Below, piece by piece: positions 2,071 to 29,243 of a stretch of DNA of 34,824 nt (positions are counted from its first letter, which is position 1; each line of letters begins with the position of its first letter). Source of the DNA: Bacteroidota bacterium (GTDB lineage Bacteria; Bacteroidota; Bacteroidia; Bacteroidales; CG2-30-32-10). Both the position numbers and the translations under genes were made by a program. The stretch spans positions 1 to 34,824 of the forward strand of contig JACAAW010000020.1 in NCBI GenBank assembly GCA_013377115.1. The letters are read 5' to 3'. Below the pieces are notes generated by a model that saw only the letters and a list, made by a program, of their open reading frames with translations, was not told the DNA's origin and did not search any database.

Positions 2071-5000
2071 TTATTCTTTTTTAGATGCAATTTGCTTGAT
2101 GCCTGCCCAAACAATTAAAGCAATAACAGCAAAAATCATGAGCCATGCCCAAATTGGGAACATTGGTGTGTCGCCAGTTCCATAACTGTGCAATCCTTTT
2201 GATAGATAGTAATTTACTCCAACAAAAGTCATGATGACACTTGAAAATCCAATTACTGATCCAACATTTAAAACGTAGGCGCTTTTCAATTTAGGAACTA
2301 ATCTTAAGTGAAGCACAAAAGCATAAACAACTACAATTACCAATGCCCAGGTTTCTTTGGCATCCCAACCCCAATATCTTCCCCAGGATTCATTTGCCCA
2401 TACACCACCAAGAAATGTTCCAATGGTGGCTAAGAATAAGCCTATTTCCATATTCATTTCATTGATTTTGGTTAATTCAGAAATTAGGGTGTCAATTTTT
2501 AAACTGTTACTTTCCTTTCTGAAAATGTATAAGAAAAGGTTGATGATTCCCAGCATAAATGCCAAGCCTAAGAATCCGTAACTTATTGTTAAAGCTGCAA
2601 CATGAATAATTAACCAATACGATTTTAAAACTGGTTGTAAATTTGTTAATTGTGGATCATAACTGCTGTGACCGGCAGTCATCAACATTGCAAAGGCTAA
2701 AAGTGCTGTTGATGCCAAAGTAATTTTGGAATATTTCATGAAATAGAACCCTGCAGCTACGCCGCCCCAAGCCACTGTTAAAAGCGCCTCGTAACCATTA
2801 CTCCATGGAGCATGACCAGATAAATACCATCTCAATATTAAACCAAATGTGTGATAAAAAAATGTAATTCCAAGCAATCCAATTAGTCCATTTAAAATCC
2901 AGTTAATCCATTTATTTTTCTTTGAACTGAAATTTTGAAAGAAGGCAATGGAAAGAAGTAGCAAACTCAAAACTCCGTAAATATTCCTGGTGTTTTCGAA
3001 TATTTTGGCATTGTTATAGAAAATTTCCAGACTAACTGCTGATTTTGATGGGAGAATTGGTCCGGCATTACTCTGACGCTGAATGCTTTCAATGTAATCA
3101 ACTATTTTGTTTGCTTGAGTATAATCACCAGTTTGTTGTGCCTCCATTATCCTCTGGAAATAGAGTCTTAATATATTGGTATAATTAAAAATTGGTAATT
3201 GTAAGTCTTCATTTATAGCTTTGACAGAACCTGTTAATGGATAAAATGCAACACTATCATTAGCGTCAACCCATTTATATGTTTCGGATTTGTCGATTGG
3301 GAATAGTTTAAGCATAGTACCATCAAATACCATTCTGCAAATATTGGCTCTTTCATCAAGTTTAATAATTTCCTTGTCAAAAGCATTTTGTTCAGTTGGT
3401 TTTTTTACAAAAGCCTCTTGCGCATATTTTGCCAATTTGTAATTAAAATTCTTGTCAAACAATTCGTCAAAGGATGCATTTCCTTCAATTCCTAAAGCGT
3501 CTTTTACTGCTTTTTCGCGGATATAAATTATTTTCTGTGCTTTCCAGAATTTTTGATCAATCAACATATCCCAAAAAGCTTGCATTCCATTTAGCTCGCC
3601 TTTGAATTCAACATTAAAATTATCTTTTCTTGAAATTTTATGCATTACATCGAAAGCAAGTGTGTGAAGAGGTTCAAACCTTCCGTCATATGTTTGTACC
3701 AGCAAGTGACTAAGTTTTTCAGCATGTTCTTTGCTAATTGCTTTGTTTTGTGAAAATCCAAAACTTGAGAAACATACAATTAATATAATAGTTAATAAAC
3801 CCGCTTTTCTGTCGGTCCGCATTTTTTTAATACCTTTTCTTAATAAAGAGAAACGAGAATTTTTACTGATCAAAATAAAGAAAGAAGCTATACATATTAA
3901 TAGGTATCCTAAATATGAAATCCAAGTTCCCCAAAAATCATGATTTACAGATAGTATTGTTCCTTTTTCATCGGTATCATAAGAAGATTGGAAAAAGCGG
4001 TAGCCATTATAATCTAAAACATTGTTCATAAATATACTGTGTTTTTCTTGTGTGTTTTTGGTGGGATCGGATAAAGTAACATCACTTTTATAGGATGATG
4101 GATTCATTGATCCAGGATATCTGTCTAAAATAAATTTGTCCAATGTTAATGAAAAAGGAAGCTTGATTTCTTTTTGTCCCCATCCAATTGAGAATTTCAT
4201 TCCTTCAATTTCAATGTCTTGAAATTCGTTGATATCCTGAGCATTACAAATAACTGGAATTTCTTGAGTTTTTCCATTTGCAGAAACATTTACCACTAAT
4301 ACATTTGAACCCATTTTGTCGTCCATGCCTTTAATCCATTTAATGGTAGCATTTCTATATAATTTTGAAAATGCAAACATTACCCCGTCTGTTTTGTAAA
4401 CATGGTCTATTTTAAACTCTTTGGTGCTATCTTTTAAAATGGCATCAGCTTCAGTTTCTTCAAGTGTGGTTTGAATGATGTCGTATTTGGAATTGATAAG
4501 CAATTTTCCATCTTTTTTTATGATTTTTATTGCATCAGGATTTTTATTGTTATTAAATGCCAAATCATATTTGCCAACGTTTTTGATTTCACCTTCTTTA
4601 AAAAGTGTTACCATAACCTGGTTGCCAAATAAAACCCTTAATTCTAAAATATCGGTTCCACCTTGAACGTTTTCATTAATTTGTTCTCTGGCGTTGGTAA
4701 TAAAATCTTGATAAGAAATTTTTACTTTATTATTATTGTCAGGTTTTATACTGAAACTAAATGAATTTTTAATATTGCCTCCTAAGGATAAAGGATAATA
4801 TTCGGTCGAATTCTCAGAATTTGTATTTGTTTTAATTTGCAGATAAGTTTCATTTGTGTATACAAGGTTGGATGAACCACCTTCTCTAATATGCATTGAA
4901 CCACTGTACCCAAAATATCTCGTAACGCCAGCGCCAAGGATTAATAAAATGAATGCAAAATGAAACAAAAAACCAAAAATTCTTTGTTTGCTTAACAAAT

Positions 5001-5205
5001 TATACTTTTTAATGTTTCCAATAAAGTTCATTACTAAAAGTACCATAAGCATTTCGAACCAGCGTGCATTGTAAACAAGTTTTTGTGCGGCAATAGTATC
5101 GAATTTGTCTTCAATGAATGTTGCGGCTCCAGTGCAAATAGCAAAAAATAGAAGAAGGATTAAAGTGAGTTTTGACGAAAATAGAATGTCTAAAGCTTTT
5201 TTCAT
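2071..5205 (-). CDS. ccsA: Fused ResB-CcsA cytochrome c biogenesis protein (System II heme lyase)
   Basis: 1044-aa ORF: N-terminal ResB-like membrane/periplasmic region, C-terminal CcsA-type multi-TM region with 'WGRYWGWDAKETWALV' (WWD heme-handling motif). Confidence 0.9.
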   Translation of the reverse strand: MKKALDILFSSKLTLILLLFFAICTGAATFIEDKFDTIAAQKLVYNARWFEMLMVLLVMNFIGNIKKYNLLSKQRIFGFLFHFAFILLILGAGVTRYFGYSGSMHIREGGSSNLVYTNETYLQIKTNTNSENSTEYYPLSLGGNIKNSFSFSIKPDNNNKVKISYQDFITNAREQINENVQGGTDILELRVLFGNQVMVTLFKEGEIKNVGKYDLAFNNNKNPDAIKIIKKDGKLLINSKYDIIQTTLEETEADAILKDSTKEFKIDHVYKTDGVMFAFSKLYRNATIKWIKGMDDKMGSNVLVVNVSANGKTQEIPVICNAQDINEFQDIEIEGMKFSIGWGQKEIKLPFSLTLDKFILDRYPGSMNPSSYKSDVTLSDPTKNTQEKHSIFMNNVLDYNGYRFFQSSYDTDEKGTILSVNHDFWGTWISYLGYLLICIASFFILISKNSRFSLLRKGIKKMRTDRKAGLLTIILIVCFSSFGFSQNKAISKEHAEKLSHLLVQTYDGRFEPLHTLAFDVMHKISRKDNFNVEFKGELNGMQAFWDMLIDQKFWKAQKIIYIREKAVKDALGIEGNASFDELFDKNFNYKLAKYAQEAFVKKPTEQNAFDKEIIKLDERANICRMVFDGTMLKLFPIDKSETYKWVDANDSVAFYPLTGSVKAINEDLQLPIFNYTNILRLYFQRIMEAQQTGDYTQANKIVDYIESIQRQSNAGPILPSKSAVSLEIFYNNAKIFENTRNIYGVLSLLLLSIAFFQNFSSKKNKWINWILNGLIGLLGITFFYHTFGLILRWYLSGHAPWSNGYEALLTVAWGGVAAGFYFMKYSKITLASTALLAFAMLMTAGHSSYDPQLTNLQPVLKSYWLIIHVAALTISYGFLGLAFMLGIINLFLYIFRKESNSLKIDTLISELTKINEMNMEIGLFLATIGTFLGGVWANESWGRYWGWDAKETWALVIVVVYAFVLHLRLVPKLKSAYVLNVGSVIGFSSVIMTFVGVNYYLSKGLHSYGTGDTPMFPIWAWLMIFAVIALIVWAGIKQIASKKE

Positions 5206-5551: not shown

Positions 5552-5563
5552 TGATATATATCA
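5552..5563. promoter_or_regulatory. Possible CRP/FNR-family operator TGATATATATCA
   Basis: Perfect 12-bp palindrome with core TGAT-ATAT-ATCA, about 127 bp upstream of the 5690 start codon. Confidence 0.3.
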
Positions 5564-5689: not shown

Positions 5690-6175
5690 ATGAAAAAAAC
5701 AATTCTAGTATTAGGTTGTTGTCTCTTAGGATGGGGGGCAAACCTTTTCGCTCAGCAGGGAGCCGTGGCTTCCGGAGGGGAAGCATCTGGCTCGGGTGGA
5801 AATGCGAGCTATTCAATAGGCCAAATGGACTATATTTATCAAACTTCTGCTACAGATGGCTCTGTTTCTCAAGGGATTCAGCAGGCATTTGAAATTTTTA
5901 TTTACACTGGTGCTGGTGAAACTGGAATTAATTTGACTACTTCAGTTTATCCAAACCCAACCATTGAGTCTTTAACACTAAAAGTTGATGGCGATTTATT
6001 GACAAATTTATTTTACCAACTTTATGACGAGCAAGGTAGGCTTATCGTAAGTAGTAAAATTGAAGGCGTGGAAACCACAATAATTATGTCGCAGTTAGCA
6101 AGTGCTAAATACTTCCTTAAAGTAATTAATGACAATAAAGAAATAAAAACTTTTAAAATAATAAAAATTAAATAA
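5690..6175 (+). CDS. T9SS type A sorting-domain protein
   Basis: Signal peptide; 'GGEASGSGGNASYSIGQMDYIY...VSQGIQQAFEI' module; C-terminal 'VYPNPTIESLTLKV...YFLKVINDNKEIKTFKIIKIK' T9SS CTD pattern. Confidence 0.85.
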   Translation: MKKTILVLGCCLLGWGANLFAQQGAVASGGEASGSGGNASYSIGQMDYIYQTSATDGSVSQGIQQAFEIFIYTGAGETGINLTTSVYPNPTIESLTLKVDGDLLTNLFYQLYDEQGRLIVSSKIEGVETTIIMSQLASAKYFLKVINDNKEIKTFKIIKIK

Positions 6176-6177
6176 CT

Positions 6178-8154
6178 ATGAAAAAAATGAAACAAAACTT
6201 AAGCTTAGTTGCCGTCTTGCTCTTCGCTTTCCATTTTTCGCTTTCAACTGCATTTGCTCAAGCTCCTCATAGCTTAAGCTATCAAGCTGTTATTCGCAAT
6301 AGTAGCAATTTATTAGTTGCAAGTCAGGCAATTGGAATGAAAATTAGTATTTTACAAGGTTCTATTACTGGAACTCCTGTTTATGTTGAAACTCAATCAG
6401 TAACTACAAATGCTAATGGATTAGCAACTGTAAAAATTGGTGGTGGTGCTATTGTTACTGGTACTATTGCTGGTATTGACTGGACAAGTGGTCCTTATTT
6501 TATTAAAACAGAAACTGATCCAACTGGTGGAACTACTTATTCTATCACTGGAACTACTGAATTATTAAGTGTTCCTTATGCATTATATGCAAAAACTTCT
6601 GGAAGTTCAACTGCTGGTCCTGCTGGTCCTACTGGTCTTCAAGGTATCCAAGGTATCCAAGGTGTTGCTGGAAATGACGGTGCAGTTGGTCCTACTGGTC
6701 CTATTGGTTTAACTGGTGCTACTGGTGCTGCTGGTGCTAATGGTGCTGCTGGTGCTGCTGGTCCTATTGGTACTACTGGTCTTCAAGGTCCTTCTGGTTT
6801 ATTAACTGTTAATTGTTTAGAATGTCACGATCATAGCTCAACTGGAGTTACTAATCCTCTTGCTCAATCTTTAAGCAATGCTCAAAACGAAATTGAATTC
6901 TCTAAACATGCTGAAGGTTTTGAATTAGCTATTGGTGAAGGTGGTAGCGCAGGTTGTGCTCCTTGTCACTCTCATGAAGGTTATCATAGTGTTGTTGATG
7001 GTAATGTTCAACCTACAATGCAATGGGGTTCTTCAAAATATACTTTTAACTACAATGCAACTGCTGCAGCTTCTTCTGGTTTAACAACTATGCCTGGTAA
7101 AATTTCTTGTTTTACTTGTCACAAAGGTGCTGCTTCTGATTCAATGCATTTATATTCTACTGCTGCTGTTCCAATGACCATGTGGCCAGTTTATGATAAT
7201 GTTACAAATCCTGGTGGAACTGTTACAAGAGCTGGAAAAACTATCAATTTAACTCAAAAAAATAGTCAATCTAATCTATGTGTTAAATGTCACCAACCAC
7301 GTCCTATGTCTTTAAGTACTTCTATTGGTGCTGCTGCAACAAGAGGAGCAAGTGTTGATTATGCTGATTTAGTTGCTAACCCAAGTCAATTATTCTATGA
7401 TGCAACTCAACCTGTTACTGGAACAACAACAAATACATTAATTCCAAGTTATAGAATGCACAATCACTATGGTGCTGTTGGTGCAATTTATGCTGGACAA
7501 GGTGCTGTTGAATTTACTGGTACTGCTACTTATTCTCCATCTGCTCACCAAACTGCTGCTTCTTGTCAAGATTGTCACATGGCTCCAACAAATGGAATGA
7601 CAGGTGGTCACTCTTTCAAAGTTGCTGAATATGATGAAGTAACTAATCCTGCTACTACATCTCCAACTACTTTAAATTTAAAAGGTTGTAATGTTTCTGG
7701 ATGTCACTTAAATAGTCAATTTGTTCAAAATGGTACTTCTGGTGCTTGGGTAACAAAATGGTTATATAACAGAAATAACACCAAAGCTTTATTGGATTCA
7801 ATTGCTAATAGATTGAGATCTAATGGTGTTGAAATTATGCACAAAAATACTGATCCAACATCAAATATTTTTGCTCATGTTACAACTGCTGGTTATGATG
7901 GATATTTAAATATCTATGATCCTTCAACAAATCCATTGGGTGGTATTAAGAATCCAAACAATTCTTCTTATACTGCTGCTCAAGCTGCTGTTAATAATGC
8001 ATTACCTTCACTTGTTTCTTTAAACAAAGCTAAAATGGGAGCAATTATTAACTTCCAATTATCTGTTAGAGAATATAGTTTGGGAATTCACAATCCTTCT
8101 TATACTATGGCTTTATTGCAAAATACTTTAGAAACTTTGCGCGCAAATCCATAA
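6178..8154 (+). CDS. Secreted collagen-like (Gly-X-Y) protein fused to a multiheme c-type cytochrome domain
   Basis: 658 aa; signal peptide; GPAGPTGLQGIQGIQG...GPSG tract; CLECH, CAPCH, CFTCH, CVKCH, CQDCH and CNVSGCH; C-terminal 'SVREYSLGIHNPSYTMALLQ'. Confidence 0.92.
   Translation: MKKMKQNLSLVAVLLFAFHFSLSTAFAQAPHSLSYQAVIRNSSNLLVASQAIGMKISILQGSITGTPVYVETQSVTTNANGLATVKIGGGAIVTGTIAGIDWTSGPYFIKTETDPTGGTTYSITGTTELLSVPYALYAKTSGSSTAGPAGPTGLQGIQGIQGVAGNDGAVGPTGPIGLTGATGAAGANGAAGAAGPIGTTGLQGPSGLLTVNCLECHDHSSTGVTNPLAQSLSNAQNEIEFSKHAEGFELAIGEGGSAGCAPCHSHEGYHSVVDGNVQPTMQWGSSKYTFNYNATAAASSGLTTMPGKISCFTCHKGAASDSMHLYSTAAVPMTMWPVYDNVTNPGGTVTRAGKTINLTQKNSQSNLCVKCHQPRPMSLSTSIGAAATRGASVDYADLVANPSQLFYDATQPVTGTTTNTLIPSYRMHNHYGAVGAIYAGQGAVEFTGTATYSPSAHQTAASCQDCHMAPTNGMTGGHSFKVAEYDEVTNPATTSPTTLNLKGCNVSGCHLNSQFVQNGTSGAWVTKWLYNRNNTKALLDSIANRLRSNGVEIMHKNTDPTSNIFAHVTTAGYDGYLNIYDPSTNPLGGIKNPNNSSYTAAQAAVNNALPSLVSLNKAKMGAIINFQLSVREYSLGIHNPSYTMALLQNTLETLRANP
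6612..6798 (+). repeat. In-frame Gly-X-Y collagen-like tract with short direct DNA repeats
   Basis: GGT-initiated 9-nt periodicity, e.g. GGTATCCAAGGTATCCAAGGT and GGTGCTGCTGGTGCT units. Confidence 0.85.
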
Positions 8155-8171: not shown

Positions 8172-8210
8172 TTAAAAGGTTGCTCCAAAAGAGCAACCTT
8201 TTTTTTTGCA
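8172..8210 (+). terminator. Rho-independent terminator of the cytochrome unit
   Basis: AAAGGTTGCTC-caaaa-GAGCAACCTTTTTTTTT. Confidence 0.85.
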
Positions 8211-8268
8211 AAGGAAAAATGAAATTGAAAATTATAGCTTTTTATAATGCAATCTTAAAGACGAGATA

Positions 8269-8332
8269 GCGCGGATTTGCAATCCGTGCAAAAATGTACA
8301 ATAAAAAACAGGCACGGATTACAAATCCGCGT
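8269..8332. repeat. REP/BIME-like inverted pair of small palindromes
   Basis: GCGCGGATTTGCAATCCGTGC (8269-8289) and GCACGGATTACAAATCCGCG (8312-8331) in inverted orientation; each arm is itself palindromic (CGGATT-N3-AATCCG). Confidence 0.75.
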
Positions 8333-8379
8333 CAACATGGGTTTAAAACCTTACGGCCATTATTGTTTAAAATAATTAA

Positions 8380-10497
8380 TTAATCTAGCTTTTTATATTG
8401 TAATCTCAGTGAATTTAATACAACGAATACATCAGATAATGCCATTGATGCAGCAGCAATCATTGGATTTAGCATTCCGGTAGCTGCCAATGGAATTGCT
8501 ATTATATTGTAGAAAAAGGCCCAGAATAAATTCTGTTTGATGATAATCATGGTGTTTTTACTTATTAAATAAGCTTTAGAAAGTAATTCCAGATTTCCTT
8601 TTAGTAATATTATTTGTGATGATTGAATTGCAATATCTGTAGCATTACTTAAAGAAATAGCAATATCTGCTTTTGCTAAAGCTGGAGCATCATTAATGCC
8701 ATCTCCAACCATGGCAATTTCGCCGTGTTTTTTTAATTCTGAAATGATTTGTAATTTTTCTAAAGGTTGTTTCTCGAAATAAACATCATTAATTCCTAAA
8801 ATATTTGATAAGTCATTGCATTTCTCTTCATTATCACCACTTAATAAAATTGTTTTTACTCCTTGCGATTTGAAAAACTCAATGGCTTTTTTAGCTTCTG
8901 GTTTTATTTCATCCTGCAAATAAACGATGGCAATAAGTTTATTATTTTCGAGTAAATAGGCGTTTCCATTGGTTTCATTGGTGAAATCTTTTGCGATTTT
9001 ATACGAACCTATTTCATAAATATTCCCGAAGGAATCTTTTCCTAAAATACCAATTCCTTTATTTTCGGTGACGCTGGTAAATTCTTTTTCTGAAATGTTT
9101 TTCATTTCATGTAAAATAGAAGATGCAATTGGATGAGAGGAATGCTTTTCTAATCCCACAATAATTGATTTAACTTCTGTTTCATCTTTGTCGAAGCATT
9201 TTATCTCTTTTATTTTGAAATTGCCTGTGGTTAGAGTTCCCGTTTTATCAAATACGATAAATTTTACATTTAGTAGTTTTTGTATGGTACTAGCACCTTT
9301 AATCAAAATGCCAATTTTCGAAACTCTGCCAACTCCTACAACCACAGCCGTGGGAATAGCAAGTCCTAATGCGCAGGGACAGGCAATAACTAAAATAGCG
9401 ATGCTTCGCATCAATGCCTCCTGAAAAGTTAAATTGAAAATCCCCCATGAAACTGAAAATGTAAGGAATGAAATTAAAATTACTACTGGAACAAATATGG
9501 CACTTATTTTATCTGCCAAATTCTGAATTTGCGGTTTGTCCTGATTTACATTCTTTACAAAATCAATAATTTTTGCCAATACAGTTTCATTTCCAACAGC
9601 AGTTGCCTTTATTTTAATGCTTCCAGAGCTTAAAACAGTTCCTCCAATAACCGTATTTTCAATGTCTTTTTCAATAGGTAAACTTTCTCCGGAGATCATT
9701 GATTCGTCGATACTACCATTTCCCCAAATAATGATACCATCAATCGGTATTTTATCACCTGAATTAATTAGTAAAATATCGTTTATTTTGATTTTTTTCG
9801 CTTCGGTTTCTATTATTATTTCTTTTCCATCAGCGTTAATTACTATTTTTTTTGCAATAATTTTTTGAAGTTTCACTAAATCTTCTATAGCAGAGGTAGT
9901 CTTTTTTATTGCTTTGTGTTCCAGTAGATTGCCTAGAAGGATAAGGGAGATAATACTAGCTGTTGTTTCGTAAAATTGATAATCGTGACCTAAACTATAA
10001 ATAGTTCCGATAAAACTATAAATAAACGCAGCAGTTGAACCTAAAATAATTAGAACATCCATATTTGGAATTCCAGATTTAACTGAATGAAATGCACTCT
10101 TCCCAAAATGGAATAATCCAACAATAAAAACAGGCAAAGTCAGTGCTAATTGAAAAAATGGATTGTGCAATATTTCGAATGGAAGAAACATTGCCGTCAG
10201 AAGAGGAATTGTAAAAATTATTGTGAAATAGAATTTCTTTTCAATTGCTGATAATTTGGGTTTCTTTGGTTCTAGTTCTTCATTATCTTCAGTAACTTTA
10301 TAGCCCATTGCAGAAATTTGCTTTATAGCATTTTCTTTTTCTTCGGCGGTTTCGTACGAAAAACTAACCTCATTTGCTGAGAAGTTAACATAAACATCCT
10401 GAAATCCATTTTTATCCAGATTTTTTTTAATTCCGAGTGCGCAGTTGGTGCAATTCATTCCTTCAACCGTGAGCGCAATATTTTTTGCTTTTTGCAT
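8380..10497 (-). CDS. copA: Heavy-metal (probably Cu+) translocating CPx P-type ATPase
   Basis: 705 aa; N-terminal HMA domain 'GMNCTNCA'; 'ACPCALGLA' CPC motif; 'DKTGTLTTG' phosphorylation site; 'GDGINDAPAL'. Confidence 0.9.
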   Translation of the reverse strand: MQKAKNIALTVEGMNCTNCALGIKKNLDKNGFQDVYVNFSANEVSFSYETAEEKENAIKQISAMGYKVTEDNEELEPKKPKLSAIEKKFYFTIIFTIPLLTAMFLPFEILHNPFFQLALTLPVFIVGLFHFGKSAFHSVKSGIPNMDVLIILGSTAAFIYSFIGTIYSLGHDYQFYETTASIISLILLGNLLEHKAIKKTTSAIEDLVKLQKIIAKKIVINADGKEIIIETEAKKIKINDILLINSGDKIPIDGIIIWGNGSIDESMISGESLPIEKDIENTVIGGTVLSSGSIKIKATAVGNETVLAKIIDFVKNVNQDKPQIQNLADKISAIFVPVVILISFLTFSVSWGIFNLTFQEALMRSIAILVIACPCALGLAIPTAVVVGVGRVSKIGILIKGASTIQKLLNVKFIVFDKTGTLTTGNFKIKEIKCFDKDETEVKSIIVGLEKHSSHPIASSILHEMKNISEKEFTSVTENKGIGILGKDSFGNIYEIGSYKIAKDFTNETNGNAYLLENNKLIAIVYLQDEIKPEAKKAIEFFKSQGVKTILLSGDNEEKCNDLSNILGINDVYFEKQPLEKLQIISELKKHGEIAMVGDGINDAPALAKADIAISLSNATDIAIQSSQIILLKGNLELLSKAYLISKNTMIIIKQNLFWAFFYNIIAIPLAATGMLNPMIAAASMALSDVFVVLNSLRLQYKKLD

Positions 10498-16092: not shown

Positions 16093-18336
16093 TTATTTTT
16101 TAATTGACCAACCTGTTTTTAAACCAATTACAAAATATACTAAACCAACACTACCGAATGCGAAAATTGTATCGCCAAAAACTCTTAACCAGCGAAGTGT
16201 TTGCATTGTTGGGCTCTGCATAAATTCCATTGAACGGGCGTACCAAATTCCATGATCAACAGATGCAATGGTTTGTAATATCCCCACAGGTAGAAGACTC
16301 ATAAGTAACATCATTGTCATTCCAATTTGGAAACACCAGAATGAGAATTTTAATACTTTTTCGTTCCATTCCTGGGCAACAGTCATTCCTCTTAGAGAGA
16401 ATAACATTAATCCAATTCCCAACATTCCATAAACACCAAACAATGCTGCGTGGCCATGTAAAGGAGTTGTGTTTAACCCTTGCATATAATATAATGCAAT
16501 AGGAGGATTAATTAAGAATCCAAAAACACCTGCGCCTACTAAATTCCAAAAAGCTACTGCAATAAAGGAATAAATTGCCCATTTGTATTTTTTAATCCAA
16601 ACTGTTGTTTTTGTTAATTGATAATTATGCCAAGCTTCGAATCCCATTAATACTAGTGGAACAACTTCTAATGCACTGAAAGATGCTCCAAGAGCGATGA
16701 TTGACATCGGTGCTCCTGCAAAATATAAATGGTGAAAAGTTCCAATGATACCACCTAATAAGTAGATAATTGTTGCAAATAAAGAACCTACAGTTGCACG
16801 TTTGATGTTTAATAATCCAAGTTTTACTAAAACAAATGCAATTACAGTTGTTGCAAAAACTTCGAAGAAACCTTCAACCCACAAATGAACAACCCACCAT
16901 CTCCAATATTCAGCAACTGAAAGATGTGCTTGACGACCGTACATTAATCCTGCACCGTAAAAAGCTGCAATTGCAATCGAAGAAATTGTAAATAATATTA
17001 ATAATTGTCTGCTATCAGATTTAACTTTTAATGCTGGCAATAAAGCGCGAATCATTAAAAATAACCAGATTAGTAAACCTCCAAATAAAAGGAATTGCCA
17101 GAATCTTCCTAAGTCAACATATTCATATCCTTGATGACCAAAATAGAAATTATTAACCAATCCTAATTTTTGCATAACACCTAACCATTCACCGGCCATA
17201 GATCCTAATACAACAATTAATAATGCGCCAAAAAGAAGATTCACACCAAATTTCTGATATTTTGGTTCAACACCAGAAACTGCAGGTGCAATAAATAATC
17301 CAGTTGCTAACCATGCGGTTGCTATCCAGAAAATTGCCAATTGAACGTGCCAGGTTCTAGAAATGGAATAAGGAAGTAAGGAATCTAATTTTAATCCGTA
17401 AAACCCATTTCCTTCAACACCATAGTGCGCTGTAATTATTCCTACAATAACCTGCAATAAAATTAATCCAGAAACAATCCAGAAATATTTTAAAGTTGCC
17501 TTCATTGAAGGAGTTGCCTTCAAATCGATAAGTGGATCTTTTTCAGGGTATTTTTCAACATCAGTATCTTTGTCTTTATTTCTGGCATAATAGAAGCCTA
17601 ATAATCCAATACCTAATAATAGCATTATTATACTAAACATTGTCCAAAATAAATGTTTTCCTGTTGCATGGTTTCCAATTAGATCATCACCTGGCCAGTT
17701 GCTAGTGTATGTGATGTCTTTGCCTGGGCGCTCTGTAACGCATGCCCATGCTGCCCAGAAGAAGAATGCATTCATTTTATGCATACTTGCTAGATCTTTA
17801 ATTGTGTTTTCTGGTATAGCGTATGCATTTCTTGTTTTTTCTAGATCTTTCCCATTCGTAAACAAGTTTTTATAATATTCCATATTTGCGTTTATTGCCT
17901 CAGCACGTAAATCTGAAATTTTTAATGTTTTACTTGATTCATCATAGGTGTTTTTACGAATATCCTTTTGAAGAAGGGCTTTTAAAAATGCCTGTTTTTC
18001 TGGATTTTCTTTTTCGTAAGTTGTTGAATCGTTTTTGAAAGCTAACTTGTCTAACATGAAAACTGCTTCTCTGTGAAGCCAATCTGCTGACCAATCTGGT
18101 GCAACATATGAACCATGGCCCCAAACGCTTCCCATTTCTTGTCCTCCAATCGATTGCCAAACACTCTGGCCATCCATGATTTCTTGAGATGAAAATAATT
18201 GTACTCCACCTTCAGTTAGAACTTTTTCTGGAATTGGTGGTTTTTGGACGTAAATTTCATATCCAAAAAATAATAAAACCGAAAAACATACTACCATTAC
18301 GGTAATAAATGCAATCCATAATTTTTTTGTGTTCAT
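16093..18336 (-). CDS. norZ: Nitric oxide reductase, quinol-dependent single-subunit type (qNOR)
   Basis: 747 aa; N-terminal 'GQSVWQSIGGQEMGSVWGHGSYVAPDWSADWLHREA', heme-copper oxidase-like TM core with 'WVVHLWVEGFFEVFATT' and 'GTFHHLYFAG'. Confidence 0.92.
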   Translation of the reverse strand: MNTKKLWIAFITVMVVCFSVLLFFGYEIYVQKPPIPEKVLTEGGVQLFSSQEIMDGQSVWQSIGGQEMGSVWGHGSYVAPDWSADWLHREAVFMLDKLAFKNDSTTYEKENPEKQAFLKALLQKDIRKNTYDESSKTLKISDLRAEAINANMEYYKNLFTNGKDLEKTRNAYAIPENTIKDLASMHKMNAFFFWAAWACVTERPGKDITYTSNWPGDDLIGNHATGKHLFWTMFSIIMLLLGIGLLGFYYARNKDKDTDVEKYPEKDPLIDLKATPSMKATLKYFWIVSGLILLQVIVGIITAHYGVEGNGFYGLKLDSLLPYSISRTWHVQLAIFWIATAWLATGLFIAPAVSGVEPKYQKFGVNLLFGALLIVVLGSMAGEWLGVMQKLGLVNNFYFGHQGYEYVDLGRFWQFLLFGGLLIWLFLMIRALLPALKVKSDSRQLLILFTISSIAIAAFYGAGLMYGRQAHLSVAEYWRWWVVHLWVEGFFEVFATTVIAFVLVKLGLLNIKRATVGSLFATIIYLLGGIIGTFHHLYFAGAPMSIIALGASFSALEVVPLVLMGFEAWHNYQLTKTTVWIKKYKWAIYSFIAVAFWNLVGAGVFGFLINPPIALYYMQGLNTTPLHGHAALFGVYGMLGIGLMLFSLRGMTVAQEWNEKVLKFSFWCFQIGMTMMLLMSLLPVGILQTIASVDHGIWYARSMEFMQSPTMQTLRWLRVFGDTIFAFGSVGLVYFVIGLKTGWSIKK

Positions 18337-18452
18337 TTTTTAAAATTTAAGTTAATAATTCATATTAATTGTTAAATCGGTACCGAAATGCCTGAATAAG
18401 TGGAAATGAAACGCTGGAAATATTAATGAATTTGCCAGCGTTTCTATTAAAA

Positions 18453-20111
18453 TTAGTTTAAAAATATTTTCATATCTTCATCAACTGTTCCGATTCCTGC
18501 AATTCCAAAGGTGTCAATAAGAACTTTGGCTACGTTTGGTGACAAGAATGCTGGTAAACTTGGTCCTAAATGAATGTTTTTTACTCCAAGGTGTAATAGT
18601 GCTAATAAAACAATAACTGCTTTTTGCTCATACCATGCAATATTATAGGCAATTGGCAAATCATTGATGTCGTTCAATTCGAAAACTTCTTTCAATTTTA
18701 AAGCAATTACTGCTAAAGAATACGAATCGTTGCATTGACCAGCATCCAAAACTCTTGGAATTCCACCAATATCTCCTAATGGAAGTTTGTTATAACGATA
18801 TTTTGCACAACCAGCTGTAAGAATTATAGTATCTTTTGGTAATTTCTCTGCAAATTCAGTATAGTAATTGCGGTCTTTCATTCTACCATCGCAACCTGCC
18901 ATCACAAAGAACTTTTTAACTGCACCTGATTTTACTGCTTCAACTACTTTATCAGCTAAAGCGAATACTTGTGCATGGGCAAATCCACCAATAATTTCAC
19001 CAGTTTCTATTTCTGTTGGTGATTTACAAGTTTTTGCCAATTCAATAATTGAACTGAAATCTTTTGACTTTCCTTCTGTTGCATTTTCAATGTGTTTGAA
19101 AGCTGGGAATCCGGCAACTCCAGTTGTAAAAACTCTATTTGAGTAGGTTGAACTTGAACTTGGAGGAACGATACAATTTGTTGTGAAAAGAACTGGACCG
19201 TTAAAGGATTCAAAATCTTCTTTTTGTTGCCACCAGGCCCCACCATAATTTCCTACAAAATGACTGTATTTTTTAAATGCAGGATAATAATGTGCTGGAA
19301 GCATTTCACTATGGGTGTATACATCAACTCCAGTTCCATCGGTTTGTTTCAATAATTCTTCCATGTCTTTTAAATCATGGCCGCTAATTAAAATACCAGG
19401 TTTGTTACTTACGCCAATATTTACTTTTGTAATTTCAGGATTGCCATAAGCTGTAGTATTTGCCTCATCAAGAAGGGCCATTACACTAACACCATATTTT
19501 CCTGTTTCCATTACCAATGCAATGTTTTCTTCAACACTTAGATTGTCGTTGGTTAAAGCTGCCAATGCGCGGCTAGCAAATGCATAAATTTCTGGATTTT
19601 CTTTTCCTAGGACTTTTGCATGGTCTGCATAAGCTGCCATTCCTTTTAAACCATATAGAATTAAGGCTCTTAATGAACGGATATCTTCATTAGGTGCATC
19701 AATTTCGCCATTGATTTCTGCAGCCTTAGTAATAATATCCAATTCATTTTTAGCTTCCCATATTGCATATTCTTGATTAATATCGCTAAAGCTTCCTTTT
19801 AATTCAATGATACTATTTTTGAGTTCTGTTCTTAAAACAAAAATCGCTTTAATTCTTTCCATAAAGAAAGTTTCAGTAAAGTTCACATTGGTAATTGTTG
19901 AAAATAATACTTCCGCAAGAAAATGATCAAATTTATTGTTTCTTTTACCTAGTTCATTTAATCTTTCTGCATATAAGGCATTGCCTTTTAGCAAATAGAC
20001 ACATAAATCTTGTAAATGAATTACTTCACTTGTAACGCCACAAGTTCCTACTTTTGAAGTGCAACCGGTTCCTTTGGCTGCCTCTTGACATTGATAACAA
20101 AACATACTCAT
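18453..20111 (-). CDS. hcp: Hybrid cluster protein / hydroxylamine reductase
   Basis: 552 aa; N-terminal '[23 protein letters not shown]'; '[16 protein letters not shown]', '[10 protein letters not shown]', '[13 protein letters not shown]'. Confidence 0.95.
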
Positions 20112-20184
20112 TTTTTAGTTTTAAATTAATGATTTTTAAATAATTTAATTGGTGCTCAAATACTTTAATGTGATGAAAAAAATA

Positions 20185-20727
20185 TTATAGATTTAGTTTT
20201 TTTTCAACTTCAATGATTCGTTTAAAAAGAATTTCATTTTCTAAATGCACATGTTGCTGAAGATTCTCATCAAATTCTTTTAATTTTTGAAATGTAATTT
20301 GATAAGTGGTGCAGCCATCTGGAGGAGGAGTGAAGTTTGCACTAAGATTTGCTATTATCTTCATTTCATTTCCAACAAATTCGTGTTCAGTTTCCATTCC
20401 TTGTATCAACCATGAAACTGGTTCAGCTTTTTCAGGGGAGTTATTTTTTTCCTTATTGACAATAATAATAATGTTTGGAAAGAGAACATCTTCTTCTTTT
20501 CCGAGGTGGCCAAGCATGTCGTTAGCAATTCCTTTGAAAATTGTTTCAATTTTCATTAGTTCCGGATGGTTGGCGCCATGCACTTCAGCAATCTTCTTTG
20601 TGTATTGCAAAAGCAATGGAATATTTTCTTTAACAAACACGTGATGGGTTTTTAAAATATGGTCTACTAAAAGGCTAAGATCCATAGTTTCAAAATCAAA
20701 TTCAGCTGATAATTCTAGTTTTTCCAT
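20185..20727 (-). CDS. Hemerythrin/RIC-like (YtfE C-terminal-type) di-iron protein; ORF-track start at 20772 is probably too early
   Basis: 'LLVDHILKTHHVFVKENIPLL' ... 'MLGHLGKEEDVLFPNI' ... 'METEHEFVGNEMKII' ... 'LQQHVHLENEILFKRI': hemerythrin-like H/E pattern; ATG at 20727 avoids overlap with upstream CDS. Confidence 0.82.
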   Translation of the reverse strand: MEKLELSAEFDFETMDLSLLVDHILKTHHVFVKENIPLLLQYTKKIAEVHGANHPELMKIETIFKGIANDMLGHLGKEEDVLFPNIIIIVNKEKNNSPEKAEPVSWLIQGMETEHEFVGNEMKIIANLSANFTPPPDGCTTYQITFQKLKEFDENLQQHVHLENEILFKRIIEVEKKLNL

Positions 20728-20752
20728 GATGAAATTTGTAAATTCAAGTGAT

Positions 20753-21601
20753 TTATACCCATCTTTCGTCAATAATACTTCCGTTTATTCCAACAGTAAT
20801 TGCTTTAATAGGAACTTTTCTAGTTGCATTTTCTACAGCTGATTGTGCAATTCTTAATAATCCGCCACAGCATGGAACTTCCATAATTGCAACAGTTAAA
20901 GTATTGATTTTTGCATCATCAATCATTGCAGTAATTTTCTCAACATAAACTTCCATATCTGAATCAAGTTTAGGACAGGCAATACCGATGCTTTTTCCTT
21001 TCATAAGCTCAGCATGAGTGTTCCCAAGCGCAAAAGCTACACAGTCAGCTGCGATTAAAACATCAGCATTTCTGAAATATGGTGCATTCGGACTAATTAA
21101 GTGCATTTGAACTGGCCATTGTCTTAATTGAGAAGGAACATTACCAGTATTGGTATTTTCACTTTGAACTTCAGTTTCTCTTAGGTCTTGCATAGCAGAA
21201 CCAGGACAGCCACATTGTGATCCTTTTGTTTCCATTGTTTTATTATTTTTAAAATTAGTATTAATGTTATTTTCTTTTAAATAATTGAGAGCTTCATTTA
21301 AATATCCATCTTCCCCATGCTCCTTTAAATGGTTTAAATGCGCTACCACAGTGTTATCGCCTGTTAAGACAATCCTTTTTAAAGTTTCCACTTCACTATA
21401 AGCTTCAGCTTCTCTTTCTTCTAAGATTATCGCACCTTCAGGACAATCTCCAATACAGGCTCCAAGTCCGTCGCAAAATAATTCGCTAATCAATCTGGCT
21501 TTGTTGTCAATTAATTGAAGGGCACCTTCATGGCAGCCAACTATACAAGATCCGCAGCCATTGCAAAGATCCTCGTCTATTTTTATTATTGTTCTTTTCA
21601 T
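20753..21601 (-). CDS. 4Fe-4S dicluster ferredoxin-type protein (Hcp-associated)
   Basis: 282 aa; 'CNGCGSCIVGC' and 'CDGLGACIGDCPEGAI' clusters plus a Cys-containing C-terminal domain ('GCPGSAM', 'DCVAF', 'VPCCGG'). Confidence 0.88.
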   Translation of the reverse strand: MKRTIIKIDEDLCNGCGSCIVGCHEGALQLIDNKARLISELFCDGLGACIGDCPEGAIILEEREAEAYSEVETLKRIVLTGDNTVVAHLNHLKEHGEDGYLNEALNYLKENNINTNFKNNKTMETKGSQCGCPGSAMQDLRETEVQSENTNTGNVPSQLRQWPVQMHLISPNAPYFRNADVLIAADCVAFALGNTHAELMKGKSIGIACPKLDSDMEVYVEKITAMIDDAKINTLTVAIMEVPCCGGLLRIAQSAVENATRKVPIKAITVGINGSIIDERWV

Positions 21602-21624
21602 GATTTTATTATTAGATTTATTTA

Positions 21625-22023
21625 TTAGAACAAGTCTGAAAGTTTTGTATTATTTAAATAGGTTTTAAAGTCAAAGGAAAATTTCTCTGGGATCCCACCG
21701 AATACACAATGTTTAAAAGAACAGATTTCGCTATGAAAATTGCATTTTTGTACTTCAATTTCCCCCTCAATCATTTCATATATATTTAATAGTGTAATTG
21801 TGTTTGGGTCCTTTTTTATTGTAAATCCTCCATTTGGACCTCTGTTTGACGAAATAAGTCCAAATTTTACTAAATTTTGAAGCACTTTTGCAGTATGGTT
21901 TTTTGAAGAACCAGTAATTTTTGATAATTCAGTTACATTTATTTGACCATTTTGCTTTGCAATTAACACCATTGAATGAATCGCAATGGAAACAGCTTCT
22001 GAAATATTTGCAATTTTTGACAT
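21625..22023 (-). CDS. Rrf2-family (NsrR/IscR-like) transcriptional regulator, copy 1
   Basis: 132 aa winged-helix; three Cys 'CNFHSEICSFKHC' in Rrf2 cluster-ligand position. Confidence 0.88.
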   Translation of the reverse strand: MSKIANISEAVSIAIHSMVLIAKQNGQINVTELSKITGSSKNHTAKVLQNLVKFGLISSNRGPNGGFTIKKDPNTITLLNIYEMIEGEIEVQKCNFHSEICSFKHCVFGGIPEKFSFDFKTYLNNTKLSDLF

Positions 22024-22220
22024 TCTAAATAGTTAATTAGGTAATTGAATACGCAAATATACAATTATATCTTTTACAAAAACAAATTTATTTTCATATT
22101 TTTTTAACAAAAATCTTATTGTACACGAATTCAGGTTGTTATTGAATCGTCTGGATAATTTTTTAATTGACTTTAAAGAAGTAATTTACTTTTTTGTTGA
22201 AATAGGATAAAAAAGGAAGG

Positions 22221-22625
22221 CTATCCAGTAATAAAATCTTGAATGGTGTGAGATTTAAAATGGACAATAAATTCATCGGTAACTCTTTTCATTATTCCAC
22301 CCATTATGCATTTGCTAAAGTGACAAATTTGTTTATTGTTGGGGCAGCCTTCGGATTCGAGTTTGCCTTCAATACACTCATATATTTCTAGAATGGTAAT
22401 TTCTGAAGCTGGTCTTTTTAAGATGAAACCTCCTGCGGGACCACGGTTAGAACTTAGCAGGCCTTGTTTGACAAGTCTTTGCATTACTTTCGCCAAGTGA
22501 TTTTTTGAGGAGCCAGTACATTCGGCAATTGTACTTACGTTGATCTTTCCCTCAGCTTGAGCTATTAAAACCATGCTGTGAATGGCAATCGAAACTGCTT
22601 CAGAGAGCTGTACTAATTTGGACAT
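22221..22625 (-). CDS. Rrf2-family (NsrR/IscR-like) transcriptional regulator, copy 2
   Basis: 134 aa; closely similar to copy 1; 'CPNNKQICHFSKC' keeps the same Cys spacing. Confidence 0.88.
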   Translation of the reverse strand: MSKLVQLSEAVSIAIHSMVLIAQAEGKINVSTIAECTGSSKNHLAKVMQRLVKQGLLSSNRGPAGGFILKRPASEITILEIYECIEGKLESEGCPNNKQICHFSKCIMGGIMKRVTDEFIVHFKSHTIQDFITG

Positions 22626-23682: not shown

Positions 23683-25110
23683 TTAAAAATATAAATCCCG
23701 CTGTCCTTGTTTTAAAAGGTTCAGTTTTTCTTGTAGCGCAGCTATTTCTTGTGTTTTTGAAAGTTCTTCTAATTTTCTTTCAATCATTTTATAACCTTTA
23801 GCTTTGGTTTCAAAACTTGCATAATCTTCCAAATATTCTGCGATTGTTAAAATTGCATTTGGGGCACAAAATCTCTTAATAAAACCAGGAACCGAAAATT
23901 CCATAAAGTGCTCGCCTGTTCTGCCAAGGCGATAGCAAGCTGTACAAAAAGAAGGGATATAATCTTTGCTGATTAGCTCTTCAATTATTTCGTTTAATGA
24001 TCTTGTATCGTTTATTTGAAATTGTTCTTTATTTAAATCTTGAACTTCTTCAGAATGCTTACTGTATCCTCCAATTTCTAAATTAGTGCCGCCATCAATT
24101 TGGGAAATTCCAAAACGTAAAACCTGGTCGCGGATTTCTGCTGATTCTCTTGCTGTTAATATCATTCCGGTATATGGAACAGCCAATCTTAAAATGGCTA
24201 CTAATTTTACAAAGTTTTCATCAGAAACCAGATATTGCTTGTCGATGTTCAATGCTGATGCATTTTGTATTCGAGGAAATGATATGGTATGTGGTCCAAC
24301 ATTAAAAACTGCTTCGAAATGGTTCACGTGTCTTACTAAACTCATTACTTCAAATCTCCAATCATAGAGACCGAACAAAGCACCAATACCAACATCATCA
24401 ATTCCTGCTTCTTGTGCACGATCTAAAGATGTTAGCCTCCAATCAAAATCTTTTTTAATTCCACCAAGATGAACCTTAGAATAGGCTTCAGGGTGATATG
24501 TTTCTTGAAAAACTTGATAAGTACCAATACCGGATTCTTTTACTGTTTTAAAACCTTCTACATCTAATGGTGCTGCATTAATGTTTACCCTACGTATTTC
24601 GCCATTTTTACTTTTAATCCCATAAACTGTTCTTACAGAATCTGCAATAAACTCAGGGGAATAATGCGGGTGTTCACCATAAACTAAAATAAGTCTTTTA
24701 TGACCGCTATCAACCAATGCAGTTGCTTCCTTTTGTAAATCCTGTTTTTCGAGGGTCACCCTTAAAACATCTTTGTTTTTTGCTTGAAAACCGCAATAAA
24801 CGCAATTGTTAATACATAAATTCCCAACATAAAGCGGGGCAAACAAAACAATCCTATCCCCATAAACATTTTCTTTCAATTGCCTGGCGCCTTCTTTTAT
24901 TTCTTCGATGAGAACAGGGTCATTGGTGTTTATAAGTATTGCAGTTTCTTGCAAAGACAGTCGTTTTTTACTTAACGACTTTTTTATTACTTCTCTAACT
25001 TTTTCAGGAGTAGATGCTTCTGTGTTGATAAAGTCCCATATTTCTTTTGAATCAATAAATGGAACATTCTTTTTATCAGCAATGCTATATTTTTCCGGTG
25101 TGTAAATCAT
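23683..25110 (-). CDS. hydG: [FeFe]-hydrogenase H-cluster maturase, radical SAM HydG
   Basis: 475 aa; 'CINNCVYCGF' radical SAM CX3CX2C; C-terminal 'SFCTACYRLGRTGEHFM' cluster motif that separates HydG from ThiH-only types; hydrogenase context. Confidence 0.93.
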   Translation of the reverse strand: MIYTPEKYSIADKKNVPFIDSKEIWDFINTEASTPEKVREVIKKSLSKKRLSLQETAILINTNDPVLIEEIKEGARQLKENVYGDRIVLFAPLYVGNLCINNCVYCGFQAKNKDVLRVTLEKQDLQKEATALVDSGHKRLILVYGEHPHYSPEFIADSVRTVYGIKSKNGEIRRVNINAAPLDVEGFKTVKESGIGTYQVFQETYHPEAYSKVHLGGIKKDFDWRLTSLDRAQEAGIDDVGIGALFGLYDWRFEVMSLVRHVNHFEAVFNVGPHTISFPRIQNASALNIDKQYLVSDENFVKLVAILRLAVPYTGMILTARESAEIRDQVLRFGISQIDGGTNLEIGGYSKHSEEVQDLNKEQFQINDTRSLNEIIEELISKDYIPSFCTACYRLGRTGEHFMEFSVPGFIKRFCAPNAILTIAEYLEDYASFETKAKGYKMIERKLEELSKTQEIAALQEKLNLLKQGQRDLYF

Positions 25111-25418
25111 GATAATTTAATAATATTACAAAATTACATGTTTAAATACAATGTTTTATTAAAAAACTCTTTTAATTTTCTGTAATTAGCCTCTTTTAGA
25201 CTCAATAAATGATGTTAGCGACATAATCAGTTATCGTAATAACCAACAAGTATAAAAATATCACTAGAGAAACTTGAGTATTGCTTCTTTTGCCTTTTCT
25301 TTTGAGCCTGTTTCGGATAAAACTATTTTAAACCCAATTTGGGTAAAGCACTAGGTAGTGAATCTCAAAATGGAGAATTACAAATAATTGAATAGGGGTT
25401 GAATAAAAAAAGAAAAAA

Positions 25419-26036
25419 TTAATGTTTTACAAAGTAAGCAACTTTTTCTAAAGAAGTGATCATATCATATTCCTCCAAATAGACAGTGGAAGGAACATTG
25501 AGTGATTTTGGTGCATAGTTTAAAATTCCTTTTACTCCAGCTTTTATTAAATTTTCAGCAACATTTACAGCTGCAATTGCTGGAACCGTGATTACACCAA
25601 CAGAAATTTTTTCCTTTTTTATTATCTCACTTAACCTATCATATTGATAGCAGTTAACGCCAACAAATTCTTTATCAACCTTTTCTGGGTTAATATCAAA
25701 GGCGGCTACAATTGTTAATTTGGTACGTTTGCCATTAAAATAGCCAATAATTGAACGACCCAAATTTCCCATTCCCACTACGGCGGCTCTAATTCCCTCA
25801 GGAGTATCAATAATATTTGAAATGAGTTCAGTTAATCCTTTAATATAATAACCTTTGCTCTGACTTCCTGAATATCCAATAAGCATAATGTCTCTACGCA
25901 CTTGAACAGGAGTGATATGAAACATTTTTGCAATTTCATGAGAAAATATATGAGTTTTTCCTTCAATCATTGAAGCGAAAAGTGCTCTTCTATATTTGCT
26001 TAGTCTTTCTACAGTTTTGTCAGGTAATCTTTCCAT
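25419..26036 (-). CDS. rex: Redox-sensing transcriptional repressor Rex; start probably at 26036 rather than ORF-track 26117
   Basis: 'MERLPDKTVERLSKYRRALFASM' N-terminus, 'ITPVQVRRDIMLIG' HTH, 'VGMGNLGRSIIGY' Rossmann motif. Confidence 0.92.
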   Translation of the reverse strand: MERLPDKTVERLSKYRRALFASMIEGKTHIFSHEIAKMFHITPVQVRRDIMLIGYSGSQSKGYYIKGLTELISNIIDTPEGIRAAVVGMGNLGRSIIGYFNGKRTKLTIVAAFDINPEKVDKEFVGVNCYQYDRLSEIIKKEKISVGVITVPAIAAVNVAENLIKAGVKGILNYAPKSLNVPSTVYLEEYDMITSLEKVAYFVKH

Positions 26037-26165
26037 ATTTTTTGTTTGTGAGTTTCTAGAGTTCTTTAAGGCTATAATATAAATTGCAATTCCAAATTTA
26101 AAAATATTTGGAAGCAAAAGTACAATTATTATTTTACAAAAGTATCACATTTAGCGATGAAACGC

Positions 26166-26196
26166 AAAAAAAAGGGTGACATAAGTCACCCTTTTT
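26166..26196 (-). terminator. Rho-independent terminator downstream of the hydrogenase operon
   Basis: AAAAAGGGTGAC-ataa-GTCACCCTTTTT with a T-run on the minus strand; between hydA and rex. Confidence 0.85.
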
Positions 26197-26218
26197 CAAA
26201 AAAAAAAGAAAACAAACT

Positions 26219-28009: not shown

Positions 28010-28045
28010 TTTCTTAATTTTTAAAGTTTTAAATTTTGTAATTGA

Positions 28046-29212
28046 TTAATAGATGATTTCTTCTTTGAAATTATCTACAATTGAATTAAAAGGATTGGCA
28101 ACAGATTGACCTAATCCGCATTTTGCAGCAATTTTCATTGTGTTTGATAATTTCTTTAATTCCTCTAAATATGAAGGTGGTCTTTCTCCTTTTTTTACAG
28201 ATTCGATACCTTTAAGTAATTGTTGACAACCAACTCTGCAAGGAGTGCATTGACCACAAGATTCTTCTGTGAAGAATTCTAGGTAATCATGAAGTACATT
28301 GTACATTGAACGTGAGCTATTGAAAATCATCATTGATCCGCCAGTTGGAATACCTTCGAAACCGATGATAGTATCATTGAATTTTTTTCTAGGTACGCAA
28401 TAACCGGATGCGCCACCCACTTGAACTGCTTTTGTATCTCCATCACCATATTCGGTAACAAAGTCATTTAAAAGCATTCCCAATTCAAGTTCATAAATAT
28501 CAGATTTTGGACTATCACCAGAAATCGAGAAAAGTTTAGAACCTCTTGAATCCTGAGTACCTAGTTTTTTGAATTCTTCTGAACCAATTTTACAAATTAC
28601 TTGTACGGTGGCAAAAGTTTCAACATTATTGATAACTGTAGGTTTTCCATTATAACCAGCTACGGTTGGGTAAGGTGGTTTGTTTCTTGGTTCGCCTCTT
28701 TTACCTTCCATTGATTCGAAAAGAGAAGTTTCTTCACCACAGATATAAGCACCACTGCCTAATTTAATTTCAATTTTAAAATCAAAATTTAATTGTTTAA
28801 TATGTTCGTGGAAAATATCAATTTCATTTTGAATGCTGCTTTCTAAAAAATTATATTCACCTCTAAGATAAATAAAACCTTTATTTGCACCAATTGCTTT
28901 TCCGCAAATTGCCATACCTGCTAGTACCTTACGAGGAACTCTCGTAAGAATTTCTCTATCTTTAAATGTACCTGGTTCTCCTTCATCAGCATTACATACA
29001 ACATATTTTTGATCAGTTTCTTGGCCTTTCGCAAATTTCCACTTCATTCCTGTTGGGAATCCAGCGCCACCTCTGCCTTTAAGACCAGAATTAAGAACCT
29101 CATCAATAATTTGATCAGGAGTTAATTTTAAGGTTTTTTCTAAAATTGCATATCTAGTATTGGTATATTCTCCAAATATTACGTCAACTTTTTTTAAATA
29201 TGTATTTGCCAT
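28046..29212 (-). CDS. hydB: NuoF/HydB-like NADH-binding subunit (core domain only)
   Basis: 388 aa; 'GRGGAGFPTGMKWKFA', 'GAYICGEETSLFESMEGKRGEPRNKPPYP', 'SCGQCTPCRVGC'. Confidence 0.9.
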   Translation of the reverse strand: MANTYLKKVDVIFGEYTNTRYAILEKTLKLTPDQIIDEVLNSGLKGRGGAGFPTGMKWKFAKGQETDQKYVVCNADEGEPGTFKDREILTRVPRKVLAGMAICGKAIGANKGFIYLRGEYNFLESSIQNEIDIFHEHIKQLNFDFKIEIKLGSGAYICGEETSLFESMEGKRGEPRNKPPYPTVAGYNGKPTVINNVETFATVQVICKIGSEEFKKLGTQDSRGSKLFSISGDSPKSDIYELELGMLLNDFVTEYGDGDTKAVQVGGASGYCVPRKKFNDTIIGFEGIPTGGSMMIFNSSRSMYNVLHDYLEFFTEESCGQCTPCRVGCQQLLKGIESVKKGERPPSYLEELKKLSNTMKIAAKCGLGQSVANPFNSIVDNFKEEIIY

Positions 29213-29243
29213 GATTTTTGTTGTTAATTTATTATCAACTTAA

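Follow-up and report, generated by a model that had tools for sequence, protein, structure and literature searches.

Why would a bacterium place a multiheme cytochrome at the end of a collagen-like stalk? The question is raised by one gene in a 34,824-nucleotide stretch of contig JACAAW010000020.1 of a Bacteroidales genome (assembly GCA_013377115.1), a stretch referred to here as the window. Our best explanation, on which we stand about midway between belief and doubt, is that the protein it encodes acts as the outermost module for electron transfer in a quinol-linked respiratory chain and is carried on a collagen-stalked, probably trimeric surface fibre resembling the MAT fibres of Bdellovibrio.

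The fusion protein and its occurrence

An uninterrupted open reading frame (ORF) at 6178..8154 on the plus strand encodes the fibre-cytochrome fusion protein of 658 amino acids. It begins with a Sec signal peptide, identified by sequence reading (approximately residues 1 to 27, ...STAFA/QAPHS; 6178..6258), which lacks a lipobox, in contrast to those of the lipoprotein relatives described below. The signal peptide is followed by an N-domain (APHSLSYQAVIRN...SVPYALYA; 6259..6603), a collagen-like stalk (6616..6804), and a hexaheme cytochrome domain of 449 amino acids (6805..8151) recognized from a 21-sequence alignment and an AlphaFold2 model. Residues 147 to 209 form 21 Gly-X-Y triplets without interruption. 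When the protein was shuffled 20,000 times, at most 7 consecutive triplets and at most one CXXCH motif were obtained. The original prediction had described these same elements (a signal peptide, an N-domain, about 60 residues of Gly-X-Y, five CXXCH sites, and one CX4CH site), and all were seen in the intact ORF. It had also proposed a Pfam check of the collagen-like tract, and the Collagen family (PF01391) matched the protein with 32.8 bits, above the gathering threshold of 27.2. An intrinsic terminator-like hairpin with a T-run, also identified by sequence reading, lies downstream of the gene (AAAAGGTTGCTC-CAAAA-GAGCAACCTTTTTTTTT; 8174..8208, plus strand). Behind this terminator, positions 8268-8345 hold an inverted repeat (CGCGGATTTGCAATCCGTGC ... 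GCACGGATTACAAATCCGCG) with a REP/MITE-like look.

The fibre gene also stands out in its codon usage. Values for GGT, GCT, and ACT were 0.75, 0.75, and 0.71, compared with 0.34, 0.31, and 0.35 across the rest of the genes in the window; GC3 was 0.12, versus 0.23 for those genes. The EF-Tu gene of the same genome is similarly biased (GGT, 0.86; GCT, 0.60; ACT, 0.67; GTT, 0.87). The bias toward GGT, GCT, and ACT that had been claimed at first inspection was therefore borne out against the window genes and matches that of EF-Tu; being both strong and EF-Tu-like, it suggests that the fibre gene is highly expressed.

An assembly artefact, named in the original prediction as one way in which it could fail, was ruled out, because the same fusion occurs in independent genomes. 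The combination of N-domain, Gly-X-Y tract, and hexaheme domain was found in six intact ORFs from five genomes: the window ORF, L028 (identical to L010), L052 and L058 (tandem copies in a single genome), L174, and L175. Three further copies are incomplete; L029 and L051 end at a contig edge, and a frameshift between L111 and L057 divides another copy in the L051 genome. The number of Gly-X-Y triplets in the fibre-type proteins ranges from 9 to 28. In a tree of 39 heme domains, which excludes the later finds L174 and L175, the seven fibre-type rows formed a single clade (bootstrap, 99; SH-aLRT, 96), so a single switch of anchor is the simplest account. The fibre type is rare: it was present in 4 of the 393 genomes sampled within the order, with 2 more in the class sample. 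Three genomes (G043, G559, and G773) carry both the fibre type and the lipoprotein type, and no plasmid or viral contig bearing the system was found. A second fibre cytochrome at L177:2140-4004 has a frameshift right behind heme motif 1 and is either a MAG error or a pseudogene.

The hexaheme domain and its lipoprotein relatives

The six heme motifs are CLECH (residue 213; 6814..6828), CAPCH (residue 260; 6955..6969), CFTCH (residue 311; 7108..7122), CVKCH (residue 368; 7279..7293), CQDCH (residue 463; 7564..7578), and CNVSGCH (residue 504; 7687..7707), all on the plus strand. In an alignment of the heme domains of the window protein and its close relatives (n = 21), all six were invariant, including the CX4CH form of motif 6, so that the lack of conservation named at the outset as a sign against the prediction was not observed. 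Motif 6 is CX4CH in close relatives and mostly CXXCH in distant ones. Eleven histidines are conserved in the wider set of 39 heme domains: the six proximal ligands and five outside the motifs (heme-domain positions 41, 227, 254, 275, and 435), one of these five in 38 of 39 sequences. As there are six hemes and five conserved distal candidates, one heme may be open or otherwise ligated. The protein has the features expected of a c-type cytochrome, namely, heme sites conserved in homologs, an export signal, and a maturation gene nearby. This last gene, divergent on the minus strand (2071..5205), encodes a CcsBA-like (System II) cytochrome c biogenesis protein of 1044 amino acids (PF01578, E = 1e-36; PF05140, E = 3.1e-21), and a CcsBA gene also lies near the hexaheme gene in L028, in L176, and at seven lipoprotein loci.

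Comparisons with known cytochromes place the hexaheme domain close to known families yet outside them; it belongs to a family of the Bacteroidia. The MtrC profile PF22113 scored 27.3 bits on the window protein against a cut-off of 30, with a weak match in 20 of the 21 aligned members, and the NrfA profile PF02335 scored 15.0 bits against a cut-off of 24.1, with sub-threshold matches in 19 of the 21. The cytochrome c7 profile PF14522 also matched weakly. The top PDB profile match was OcwA of Thermincola potens (6I5B; E = 0.0048), a weak similarity that includes a C-terminal GxHN helix. The AlphaFold2 model of the domain had a pLDDT of 78 and a pTM of 0.85. Foldseek returned nothing significant for this model; the top three hits were NrfA and octaheme nitrite reductase structures (E = 0.5-3), with E values of 0.54-0.64 for NrfA 1fs7 and octaheme nitrite reductase. 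NrfA is a pentaheme enzyme with a catalytic CXXCK motif in most members. The window protein has six motifs, none of them CXXCK, and scores under the PF02335 cut-off, so it was not assigned to NrfA. Nor was it classed with OcwA, which has nine hemes, two of them open, and an NrfA-like helix bundle. Membership of the MtrC/MtrF group was likewise rejected on the PF22113 score and on six motifs rather than ten. MtrC and OmcA are decahemes, and the resemblance to them extends to the many hexaheme relatives that are predicted lipoproteins; the window protein, however, has a fibre instead of a lipid anchor, and no MtrAB-type partners were found.

These similarities bear on the main rival explanation, in which the fibre displays a multiheme reductase that acts, like NrfA or OcwA, on a soluble substrate such as a nitrogen or sulfur oxyanion, and not a module that hands electrons to solids or humics. 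The imbalance between six proximal and five conserved non-motif histidines would fit an open heme and could equally indicate an enzyme, and most likenesses at the PDB level, all weak, fall within the NrfA/OcwA lineage (6i5b, 1fs7, and PF02335). OcwA itself has two open hemes and reduces nitrite and hydroxylamine, besides acting as a terminal reductase at the cell surface (PMC6703420). However, the CXXCK motif of NrfA is absent, the fold match is not significant, the heme count is six versus nine or five in that lineage, and the lipoprotein relatives sit beside electron-transfer genes, among which no substrate transporter or sensor was recognized. We consider a reductase role unlikely, though worth serious attention.

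Those relatives also clarify what is new in the fusion. In most other family members, a lipobox is followed directly by 2 to 13 Gly-X-Y triplets and then by heme 1, marking them as predicted lipoproteins; among complete relatives, almost every one has such a short tract between the lipidated Cys and heme 1. The idea that a collagen tract is exclusive to the fusion was thus ruled out. The tract is a tether shared across the family, and the novelty lies in the exchange of the lipid anchor for a fibre N-domain.

Many of the lipoprotein genes share a gene neighborhood that recurs from locus to locus. Its other members are a b561-type cytochrome b, a heptaheme cytochrome, monoheme cytochromes (one or two), the small beta-barrel protein DUF5777, a regulator of the CRP/FNR family, and sometimes CcsBA. 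DUF5777 proved a weak marker of this electron chain, since it was found in many other contexts; it is also small for a porin that encloses a cytochrome, and no mention of it was found in the open-access literature. A TGAT-N4-ATCA palindrome, mostly TTGATATWTATCA, lies no more than 250 nt ahead of the lipoprotein gene at 9 of 19 loci, against a background of 0.02 per 250 nt (binomial P of ~5e-11, a value that is only indicative because the loci are related). The test is conservative, as several of the remaining lipoprotein genes sit inside operons. The window carries an FNR/CRP-like palindrome of its own, TGATATATATCA (5552..5563, no strand assigned), located 138 nt before the companion gene described below; it is the only match of this type in the window, where 0.01 is expected. 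An identical 12-mer (TGATN4ATCA type) precedes the companion at L028, and the strict palindrome is absent before the companion at the fibre-type loci L175 and L176. At L034:354-3437, two divergent tandem hexaheme lipoproteins, one with six CXXCH motifs and the other with five CXXCH motifs and a CX4CH motif, each combine a Gly-X-Y tether with an upstream FNR-like site.

The fibre N-domain and its T9SS companion

A family profile, NF053851 (Bdello_MAT_N), linked the N-domain to the MAT fibres of Bdellovibrio. It matched all 35 N-domain homologs searched (best E = 8.7e-13). The window N-domain gave an E value of 1.8e-7 and 31.1 bits, below the curated cut-off of 60 bits, and is best described as a probable homolog of the MAT N-domain rather than a called member of the family. 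Its AlphaFold2 model is beta-rich (pLDDT, 85), and comparison of this fold with the PDB gave generic beta-sandwich matches alone, none with E <= 0.001. Of 119 Bacteroidia genomes sampled, 70 contained the domain, at up to 17 places per genome, which would tie the Bdellovibrio fibres to a very large family of Bacteroidota fibres. MAT proteins form trimeric surface fibres that act as adhesins with exchangeable tips (PMC10769870). The arrangement in the window is similar in that a homologous N-domain stands directly behind the signal peptide and is followed by a shaft and a swappable C-terminal tip. Variation of the tip on a common N-domain was seen among the Bacteroidota homologs as well, which bear Lcl_C domains, S74 chaperones, YadA-like repeats, long collagen tracts, or hexaheme tips. 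The two systems differ in that the MAT shaft is an intertwined trimeric beta-prism/beta-helix, whereas the window shaft is Gly-X-Y; the window protein also has a multiheme cytochrome as its tip, a T9SS partner gene, and a score under the MAT_N cut-off. Two paralogous N-domain fibres in the same genome (L102:1304-4648 and L103:6777-9017) carry 56 and 50 Gly-X-Y triplets, together with YadA-like repeats or VGIGT shafts; the L103 fibre has a T9SS companion of its own.

The adhesin-like tips (Lcl_C and S74) of other N-domain proteins, and the adhesive function of MAT fibres (PMC10769870), also fit an attachment role, with the tip binding Fe/Mn oxides, heme-binding surfaces, or cytochromes and the whole fibre acting as an adhesin. 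Adhesion as the purpose of the hemes is improbable in our judgment, however: eleven histidines and all motifs have been retained across deep divergence, and the relatives sit in respiratory clusters.

Immediately upstream of the fibre ORF, with its stop codon 2 nt ahead of it, is a gene (5690..6175, plus strand) for a 161-amino-acid companion composed of a signal peptide, a GG-rich domain, and a C-terminal T9SS sorting domain. The sorting domain matched PF18962 (E = 9.9e-10) and TIGR04183 (E = 2e-12), both above cut-off. In profile searches, a Por_Secre_tail sorting domain was present in the companion and absent from the fibre protein. A companion-like ORF lay directly upstream in 28 of the 35 N-domain ORFs checked, so the companion and the fibre look like a two-gene cassette. 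SprA, the translocon of the T9SS, is encoded in the same genome. Between the fibre cytochromes and CcsBA at L176, positions 9505-10440 encode a T9SS-tailed Reeler-like protein with one CXXCH motif, possibly a monoheme cytochrome exported by T9SS. This pairing of a CXXCH motif with a T9SS tail is a hint that c-type cytochromes may leave the cell by that route.

The likely surface location of the fibre is thus drawn from the N-domain homology and the partner gene. The protein might instead stay in the periplasm, tethered by its N-domain, and relay electrons across that compartment. It has a Sec signal with no sorting domain of its own, and the attachment of c-type hemes is a periplasmic process. 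Nevertheless, the N-domain family is fibre-like, with adhesin tips and a T9SS protein as its partner, and we regard a periplasmic end point as quite improbable.

A proposed electron route and its novelty

In the respiratory explanation that we prefer, low oxygen would cause a CRP/FNR-type regulator to act at the palindrome ahead of the companion-fibre operon. The preprotein would be exported by Sec, and the neighboring CcsBA would attach six hemes in the periplasm. The holo-protein may then cross the outer membrane via T9SS, a system believed to move proteins in the folded state, with the aid of the companion and its sorting signal; such aid is proposed because the fibre has no sorting signal of its own. 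The N-domain would anchor the fibre, and the collagen stalk would hold up to 18 hemes per trimer at its tip. The collagen helix rises 0.29 nm per residue, and the stalk would measure about 18 nm if fully helical. Quinol electrons could reach the surface through b561/heptaheme or 19-heme-b561 proteins and outer-membrane lipoprotein cytochromes, and the tip could pass them to humics, minerals, or partner cells.

The genes proposed for this chain are on contigs other than that of the window. The genome contains two conduit-type clusters, C157 (L100) and C222 (L101), both of which lack a hexaheme lipoprotein, and the window protein is the only member of the hexaheme family found in it. The assembly is 94% complete in 296 contigs, so the missing lipoprotein is not proof of absence. 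C157 includes b561, a heptaheme cytochrome, a 19-heme-b561 fusion, lipoprotein monohemes, DUF5777, and CRP/FNR. The fusion (L100:5597-8404) is a 936-amino-acid protein with 19 heme motifs joined to a cytochrome b561-like membrane domain, and it is 68% identical to its L043 counterpart, which neighbors the family's lipoprotein there.

The original prediction had proposed a surface-displayed or fibrous electron conduit, or else a cell-surface multiheme enzyme. Surface display and a role in electron transfer are supported by the MAT homology, the T9SS partner, the lipoprotein clusters with b561, multiheme, and beta-barrel proteins, the shared FNR-like element, and the EF-Tu-like codons. Conduction along the fibre is another matter. 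The ~63 stalk residues hold no heme, which rules out an electron wire along the stalk by heme hopping; the stalk would thus serve as a tether with flexible reach, and the tip must be charged through contact with surface cytochromes or neighboring tips. Polymerization into a conductive filament like those of OmcS, OmcE, or OmcZ would be compatible with six hemes in ~450 amino acids and with the presumed extracellular context. We consider it very improbable, however, as each subunit would bear a heme-free N-domain and stalk, and neither PDB sequence searches nor Foldseek matched a cytochrome filament, so membership of that group was rejected.

Every module of the protein is already known. Collagen-like adhesins such as Lcl and Scl, as well as BclA, present a C-terminal domain on a Gly-X-Y stalk; the window protein differs in its redox tip and its Bacteroidota N-domain. 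Within the same phylum, the parts of a report on humic-lake Bacteroidetes drawn on here describe putative porin-cytochrome complexes and outer-surface multiheme cytochromes with proposed extracellular electron transfer (PMC6344600); those parts describe no collagen stalk or fibre N-domain. In the open-access literature, we found neither a description of a multiheme cytochrome borne by a collagen-like or MAT-like fibre nor any paper linking multiheme cytochromes to T9SS or, in Bacteroidetes, to collagen-like stalks. The statement made at first inspection, that no characterized protein of this architecture was known, agrees with this search.

The locus suggests that adhesin-like stalks can serve microbes as carriers of respiratory electron-transfer modules. 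More specifically, and with somewhat more doubt than belief, we propose that Bacteroidota mount a respiratory hexaheme tip on a modular trimeric fibre (with as many as 18 hemes) that is matured in the periplasm and exported folded by T9SS with its companion. If so, modular fibres of the adhesin type can display respiratory redox modules, and a family of lipid-anchored outer-membrane cytochromes switched to fibre display, apparently once. This would add a third route to surface electron-transfer proteins, beside lipid anchors and self-polymerizing filaments. It would also provide a test case for export of holo-cytochromes via T9SS and, for the suspected but poorly defined chains of extracellular electron transfer in uncultured Bacteroidales, candidates that can be tested.

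Two other clusters, both on the minus strand, were noted in the window. Positions 16093-22625 hold an NO-stress cluster with a quinol-type nitric oxide reductase, a hybrid cluster protein (Prismane), and a hemerythrin/RIC-like protein, all three matched by Pfam, along with a ferredoxin-type protein and two Rrf2-like (NsrR-like) regulators recognized by eye. Positions 23683-29717 encode an [FeFe]-hydrogenase, NuoE/NuoF-like subunits, a HydG-like radical SAM protein, and a Rex-like regulator (two genes by profile matches, the remainder by eye), a set that probably serves electron-bifurcating H2 metabolism.
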